Source: a virus
IMG/VR virus record: IMGVR_UViG_3300010885_010253
Span: 1-31,501 of that record
Strand: one strand, 5' to 3'
Length of the DNA stretch: 31,501 bases
The position numbers were made by a program, and so were the translations under genes. Under the pieces are notes generated by a model. That model had not been told where the DNA came from. It did not search any database and saw only the letters and a program-made list of their open reading frames with translations. Shown piece by piece: positions 30,609-31,501 of this stretch (positions within the stretch are counted from its first letter, which is position 1; each line of letters opens with the position of its first letter).

Positions 30609-30706
30609 AAGGCCAAAGGCCTTTATATATTTTCTTTATATATCAATTATACATAGGCAATTACCAATCGTTGGATAGCCACGGTCTTACGACCGCTGTG
30701 TATAAT
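30609..30706. promoter_or_regulatory. Divergent AT-rich control region with two hairpins and a leaderless rightward -10
   Basis: AAGGCC-AAA-GGCCTT (30609-30623) has the same 6-3-6 geometry as hairpins before the late operon. CGGTC-TTAC-GACCG (30682-30695) lies just upstream of TATAAT (30701-30706). That -10 is only seven bases from the ATG at 30714, so transcription should begin at or next to the start codon. No good -35 at 16-18 bp is seen; the inverted repeat may bind an activator instead. Confidence 0.6.
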
Positions 30707-30713
30707 TCTATAT

Positions 30714-30905
30714 ATGTCAATCAAACTAGAAGAATATACTCTACCAGAGCACATGTCGTACTCTGCGTTTACAACCTACCTAACCTGTGGGTACCAGTAC
30801 TACCTTGGCAGACTCCTCAACAAGGAAGAAGCCCCATCCGTCTGGTCTGTTGGCGGTTCAGCGTTCCACCTAGCGTGTGAAAACTACGATAAGGAGAACG
30901 GATGA
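30714..30905 (+). CDS. Cas4/RecB-like nuclease, N-terminal piece, 63 aa
   Basis: Starts MSIKLEEYTLPEHMSYSAFT and ends CENYDKENG. SYSAFTTYLTCGYQYYLGRL matches the entry of Cas4/RecB-type PD-(D/E)XK nucleases, where a Cys in a CPxKYxY-like motif is often the first iron-sulfur ligand. VGGSAFHLACENYD is the usual GxxxHxxxExY helix. The family's catalytic core is missing here but is coded by the next, overlapping gene. No ribosome site precedes the ATG, in keeping with a leaderless mRNA. Confidence 0.78.
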   Translation: MSIKLEEYTLPEHMSYSAFTTYLTCGYQYYLGRLLNKEEAPSVWSVGGSAFHLACENYDKENG

Positions 30906-31501
30906 GCGTTCAACAACTATGGGACCAAGCATGGCTTGAGTCCAAAGGTGACATCGACCTAACCAATGCACGTGTTGGTGGTCGTGCCACTAAAGCAAAT
31001 CCTAACAAGGAAGACGTTACCTTCTGGCAAAGCCAAGGACCTAGATGGGTTGAGTCTTACATCGCATGGCGTAAGCAGAACTCTAACTGGAAAATTTGGA
31101 CAGCACCAGATGGCAATCAAGGAATCGAACTTGCCCTAACTCCTGTCGTGGCTGGCGTTCCAGTCAAGATGATTATTGACCGCGTGTTTGAAGTCAACGG
31201 AGAACTGGTAATTGTCGACTTAAAGACATCACAGAACACACCTACTAGCAGTCTACAACTTGGCTTCTACAAACTAGGCCTTGAACAGACTTTCGGCATA
31301 GAGGTAAAGTGGGGAACATATTACATGTCCCGTGGTAGCAACATCTCTGACATGGTAAACCTATCTGAATATACCTACGACAAGATGGAATACCTAATCA
31401 CGCAATTTGACAAGGCGCGTAAGAACGCTATATTCTTACCCAACACAAACAGTTGTCAGTACATGTGTGAACTCACCGAGTACTGCCAATTCTCTATCAA
31501 G
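30902..31501 (+). CDS. Cas4/RecB-like nuclease, catalytic piece, cut by window end
   Basis: Begins in the stop of the previous gene (ATGA) with AAGGAG five bases before, and is open to the window end (200 residues so far). MIIDRVFEVNGELVIVDLKT carries the PD-(D/E)XK catalytic set (Asp of IIDR, then Asp-Leu-Lys), and SLQLGFYKLGL is the following QxxxY-like helix. CQYMCELTEYC near the end gives three Cys that would complete an iron-sulfur site with the Cys in the first piece. Phage enzymes of this family are exonucleases in replication or recombination. Together the two proteins match one full-length relative. Confidence 0.82.
   Translation, partial: MSVQQLWDQAWLESKGDIDLTNARVGGRATKANPNKEDVTFWQSQGPRWVESYIAWRKQNSNWKIWTAPDGNQGIELALTPVVAGVPVKMIIDRVFEVNGELVIVDLKTSQNTPTSSLQLGFYKLGLEQTFGIEVKWGTYYMSRGSNISDMVNLSEYTYDKMEYLITQFDKARKNAIFLPNTNSCQYMCELTEYCQFSIK

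Follow-up and report, generated by a model that had tools for sequence, protein, structure and literature searches.

A probable Cas4-like exonuclease of actinophages encoded by two genes, with a metal site predicted to be shared between the chains

Introduction

Abundant freshwater actinobacteria are host to many viruses, two of them cultivated, that carry a Cas4-like nuclease in two genes. Sequence comparison and structure modelling make it highly probable that the products form an obligate two-chain exonuclease of actinophages with a metal cluster shared between the chains. In the mechanism that we propose, an N chain of 60-odd residues would dock on the C chain and complete one nuclease fold, bringing the active-site His and the first Cys, and one four-Cys metal site held by both chains, probably [4Fe-4S] or [2Fe-2S], would staple the heterodimer together. 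The window, i.e., the whole 31.5-kb stretch of DNA analysed, is an uncultivated virus record with the tailed-phage genes for terminase, portal, major head protein and tail fibre, and the nuclease gene pair forms its right end.

Results

The two nuclease genes and their conserved residues

The features of the gene pair are collected in Table 1. The N-chain protein reads MSIKLEEYTLPEHMSYSAFTTYLTCGYQYYLG...GGSAFHLACENYDKENG; the C-chain gene gives 200 amino acids within the window and its relatives are ~3-6 codons longer. An earlier note on this DNA had placed the first Cys and the GxxxH helix on the N-terminal piece and the DLK active site and three C-terminal Cys on a second gene with an ATGA overlap and its own AAGGAG, and translation and inspection of the sequence confirm each of these assignments.

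Table 1. Coordinates of the nuclease gene pair and its predicted expression signals in the window.
Feature	Position	Strand	Details and basis
TATAAT -10-like element	30701..30706	+	7 nt before the N-chain ATG; sequence
N-chain gene, 63 aa	30714..30905	+	PD-(D/E)XK Cas4-like nuclease; ATG 30714, TGA 30903-30905; Cys25 (codon 30786-30788), His52 of GxxxH (codon 30867-30869); translation, PDDEXK_1, invariance
AAGGAG ribosome-binding site of the C-chain gene	30891..30896	+	lies in the 3' end of the N-chain gene; 5 nt separate it from the C-chain ATG; sequence
ATGA stop/start overlap	30902..30905	+	putative translational coupling; sequence
C-chain gene, open at the window end	30902..31501	+	ATG 30902; Asp93 (in IIDRVF), Asp106-x-Lys108 (in VDLKTS, 31217-31225), Gln119-x3-Tyr123 (QxxxY), Cys185/Cys189/Cys195 (codons at 31454, 31466, 31484); translation, PDDEXK_1, Cas_Cas4, invariance

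Searched separately with the Pfam family PDDEXK_1 (PF12705; curated cut-off 22 bits), the N half of the window scores 27 bits over profile positions 1-50 and the C half 35.6 bits over positions 83-247, so that the two matches are colinear without overlap. With each half above the cut-off by itself and the arrangement repeated in 332 related loci, a chance resemblance is far from likely. The joined sequence of a relative, L078, reaches 63.8 bits over the full profile (1-247 of 247), above either window half. The C chain also matches Cas_Cas4 (28 bits), and PHROGs places both halves in "exonuclease" families. A phmmer search of PDB sequences with the C chain returned a chance match only. The RecB motifs GxxxH, D, (D/E)xK and QhxxY are all present, shared out over the two chains, and every one of the 260 split and 52 one-gene loci compared keeps the four Cys, the His, the Asp, the Asp-x-Lys and the Gln. 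At the C terminus, 67 of the 234 distinct sequences, those of the window clade and L226, read C-x3-C-x5-C, with one residue more in the Cys knuckle than the usual C-x2-C-x5-C of most other relatives. Described members of PF12705 are single polypeptides, a trait that lies outside the family definition, whereas here 332 loci have two genes; since the motifs sit in two genes and not in one polypeptide, we class the enzyme as a variant. As for a CRISPR-associated Cas4, none of the 24 proteins scanned (window and phage E7) matches a Cas family, and the neighbours of the pair are phage structural and replication genes, not cas1/cas2.

Distribution of the two-gene form

The relatives of the window, the loci around the copy in a cultivated phage and three further scans gave 409 loci, which profile classification divides into 332 split, 62 one-gene, 13 at viral contig edges, one in a distant metagenome-assembled genome (MAG) and one unscored. 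The split loci come from viral contigs of many metagenomes and, because some lie on one contig, were counted as distinct N+C sequences (234). All 80 loci nearest to the window have the same two-gene form, and among the 80 nearest to the copy of the cultivated phage, so do all that include upstream sequence. Two cultivated Planktophila phages, LanE43AprE7 (E7) and F5 (PMC10202952), supply the nearest annotated records (OX376640 and OX376641); both are split, with a C chain 58% identical to that of the window, and 12 nucleotides distinguish their gene pairs. Wherever the phage sequence extends upstream, a C gene is accompanied by an N gene; the 13 viral loci that lack one start at a contig edge. 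Of the 26 records with lengths of 31-42 kb, 25 have exactly one N and one C gene; the remaining 41-kb record (G018, locus L135) has N+C pairs at 1-718 and 40203-40980, either a terminal redundancy or a second copy. A cellular source was not found: a profile scan of genome contigs with the C-chain alignment gave no relative, and one with mixed rows gave only the distant actinobacterial MAG match.

The break lies at the same loop after the GxxxH helix in every split locus, and alignment with one-gene actinophage Cas4 exonucleases shows this loop to be of variable length. Most pairs overlap directly; at least one ORF lies between the halves in L071, L119, L133, L137, L211, L213, L221, L226, L331, L346, L357, L401 and others, and the intervening stretch reaches ~930 bp.

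Joined fold and shared metal site

As a stand-in for the docked pair we modelled a relative ~40-50% identical to the window, L207, as one polypeptide with its in-frame TAG read as Gln, from an alignment that included N-only and C-only rows. The model has a pLDDT of 94.1 and a pTM of 0.90, and its confidence drops only at the junction (residues 65-68) and at the C terminus. Foldseek was run as well as VIA-align, which matched the whole chain to AdnA (Z 16.5), the Argonaute-associated Cas4-family protein ACE1 (16.4), AddB (15.3, covering 240 residues), a type I-C Cas4 (12.6), Dna2 (12.4) and SSO0001 (11.4); EXO5 was also matched over nearly the whole chain. In the model the joined chains are an AddB/AdnA/Cas4 "iron staple" nuclease fold with its staple helices; since they were modelled as one polypeptide of a relative, it is the fold that is tested, not free association.

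In AddB and Cas4 SSO0001, four equivalent Cys hold one cluster that is important for stability (PMC3466216), and by this homology the shared metal site is well founded. The earlier note had proposed that two chains join to build a single cluster, a reading that alignment and the predicted joined model both support. Related proteins differ in what they bind at this place: Cas4 Pcal_0546 has a [2Fe-2S] cluster (PMC4176176) and the related fold 3L0A has zinc at the four Cys (PMC3466216). Because cleavage by Pcal_0546 persists after cluster loss (PMC4176176), the cluster that the two chains would share may serve the structure of the enzyme and not its catalysis.

The chains might instead have separated functions, the C chain needing no partner or a different one and the N chain serving as a regulator; we consider this improbable. 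The spacing of up to ~930 bp, by which strict coupling is not required at every locus, would suit such an arrangement, but the N chain keeps exactly those residues with which one-gene homologues complete their active site and cluster, and it is never absent given upstream phage sequence.

The split as a biological feature

The halves stand in different relative frames in different lineages: among distinct sequences, +1 in 115, +2 in 110 and 0 in nine. Neither sequencing error nor decay nor programmed frameshifting can account for frames that vary by lineage together with genes between the halves; the split is a biological one. Both halves are under purifying selection: most dN/dS values lie between 0.03 and 0.07 in the N chain and between 0.04 and 0.13 in the C chain, with saturation of synonymous sites in several of the pairs, and in one close pair the N chain gave 0.34.

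Production of one fused protein, via programmed frameshifting, stop read-through or RNA splicing, is very improbable. Phages use recoding in other genes, and in L207-L209 nothing but an in-frame TAG separates the halves; L210, the sister of these loci, has a separate ORF past its stop, however, the frame relation varies between relatives, the halves are separated by whole genes in L119, L133, L137, L213 and L401, no intron family reaches the Rfam threshold in 13 loci, and the kept AAGGAG favors a separate start for the C chain. At the L207-L209 junction the in-frame TAG is followed by TTG, and it is at this place that L210 has its additional ORF.

Sequencing or assembly error, or a recent gene-killing frameshift, deserves next to no credence: one-gene homologues exist, one isolated frameshifted contig would look alike and the first profile called the Pahexavirus contig L196 broken, but the split was seen 332 times (234 distinct sequences), across many metagenomes and in two isolates, in three relative frames, with intervening genes and with strong purifying selection on both halves. 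The earlier note's judgement that a sequencing error was less likely is thereby borne out, and the fused version that it proposed to look for is absent among the nearest loci, one-gene homologues appearing only at ~30-50% identity.

Signals for expression

In the window clade the Lys-Glu pair of the N chain over which the ribosome-binding site lies is encoded as AAG GAG in 66/68 related loci, which are not independent, against a background elsewhere in the C gene of 66% AAG and 44% GAG; this conserved AAGGAG points to a separate start for the C chain. The two usually overlapping genes are probably translationally coupled. A TATAAT/TATACT-like element occupies the same place ahead of the N chain in most loci of the window clade, with TTGACA ~17 nt upstream in many, and this predicted promoter suggests a leaderless N-chain transcript that begins at the start codon. 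The E7 clade has an AGGAG site ahead of the N chain in place of the -10-like element.

One-gene relatives and the origin of the split

One-gene relatives occur in Pahexavirus, mycobacteriophages and some freshwater phages. A maximum-likelihood tree of 41 rows requires three or more transitions between the split and the one-gene form. The split groups (the main one, which includes the window; L199+L213; L200+L201) are separated on it by the one-gene L204, L212, L206 and Pahexavirus. L204 stands beside L341 with weak support, and a main split group without L204 is not rejected (p 0.305). The data give no clear rejection of a single clade that holds every split form (AU p 0.052); a clade of the main group and L199/L213, groups named after seeing the tree, is rejected (p 0.016). 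These placements suggest repeated fission at one loop, or fission then refusion. That the two-chain form was gained or lost several times at exactly this loop, with division selected and not accidental, is a tentative reading that we hold to be somewhat unlikely; if true, selection might favor, e.g., an enzyme kept inactive until both chains are made. In L084 and L085 (Cutibacterium phages PAVL21 and vB_CacS_YGXY), the deposited records show small opposite-strand ORFs where the one-gene exonuclease frame lies, probably an annotation error.

Homing endonucleases are a known cause of split phage enzymes (PMC2988022). None of the eight intervening ORFs searched matches an HNH or GIY-YIG family; an ancient homing endonuclease insert at the split, since lost, is conceivable. 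A split intein was rejected as a candidate: the N chain stops a few residues past the helix and has no space for an intein half. An ORF between the nuclease genes, at 338-694 of L401 and 2695-3054 of L406, resembles a small lytic transglycosylase by eye and, in part, an E7 protein; this is an unusual position for a lysis-type gene.

Gene neighborhood and likely role

The genes that follow the pair downstream in E7 are those for a DnaB-like helicase, a RusA-like Holliday-junction resolvase, a primase (spread over two ORFs) and a sigma factor. Because the pair lies just upstream of the helicase, resolvase and primase, DNA-end processing during phage replication and recombination is the likeliest role of the enzyme; in cultured actinophages a DnaB-like helicase is also found near the one-gene form. 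The two overlapping primase ORFs of E7 (L328; 34482-34871 and 34720-35346) match different parts of DNA primase families.

Discussion

The closest described enzymes are the pfam12705 "Cas4 family exonucleases" of Mycobacterium and Propionibacterium phages (PMC5704561), which share the motifs and their order, the four Cys and the nearby small genes and DnaB-like helicase but are encoded by one gene as one chain, have C-x2-C-x5-C and are ~25-34% identical. The AddB nuclease domain and Cas4 SSO0001 (PMC3466216) share the whole-chain fold, with one N-terminal and three C-terminal Cys; their cluster ligands lie in one chain, however, and AddB is fused to helicase-derived domains. Other phage enzymes made in pieces, the split NrdA of phage Aeh1 and the Aeromonas phage DNA polymerase 43A/43B (PMC2988022), reassemble into active proteins, but there, in particular phages, homing endonucleases or an untranslated insert are involved, whereas the nuclease split is widespread and would divide a metal site too. 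We found no report of a split Cas4-type nuclease in the open-access literature. The main phylogenomic survey of Cas4 described the pfam12705 phage clade without mention of a split, and it left out sequences that were short or disrupted (PMC5704561), which suggests that split enzymes are easily missed as fragments.

For a large group of phages of abundant freshwater actinobacteria, the sequences point to an active site and an apparently single metal cluster divided between two gene products. The pair would be a nuclease split by nature, whose assembly is predicted to depend on metal and for which two cultivated phages are available, and the use of one fission site in three parts of the tree lets the study of why genes split begin.
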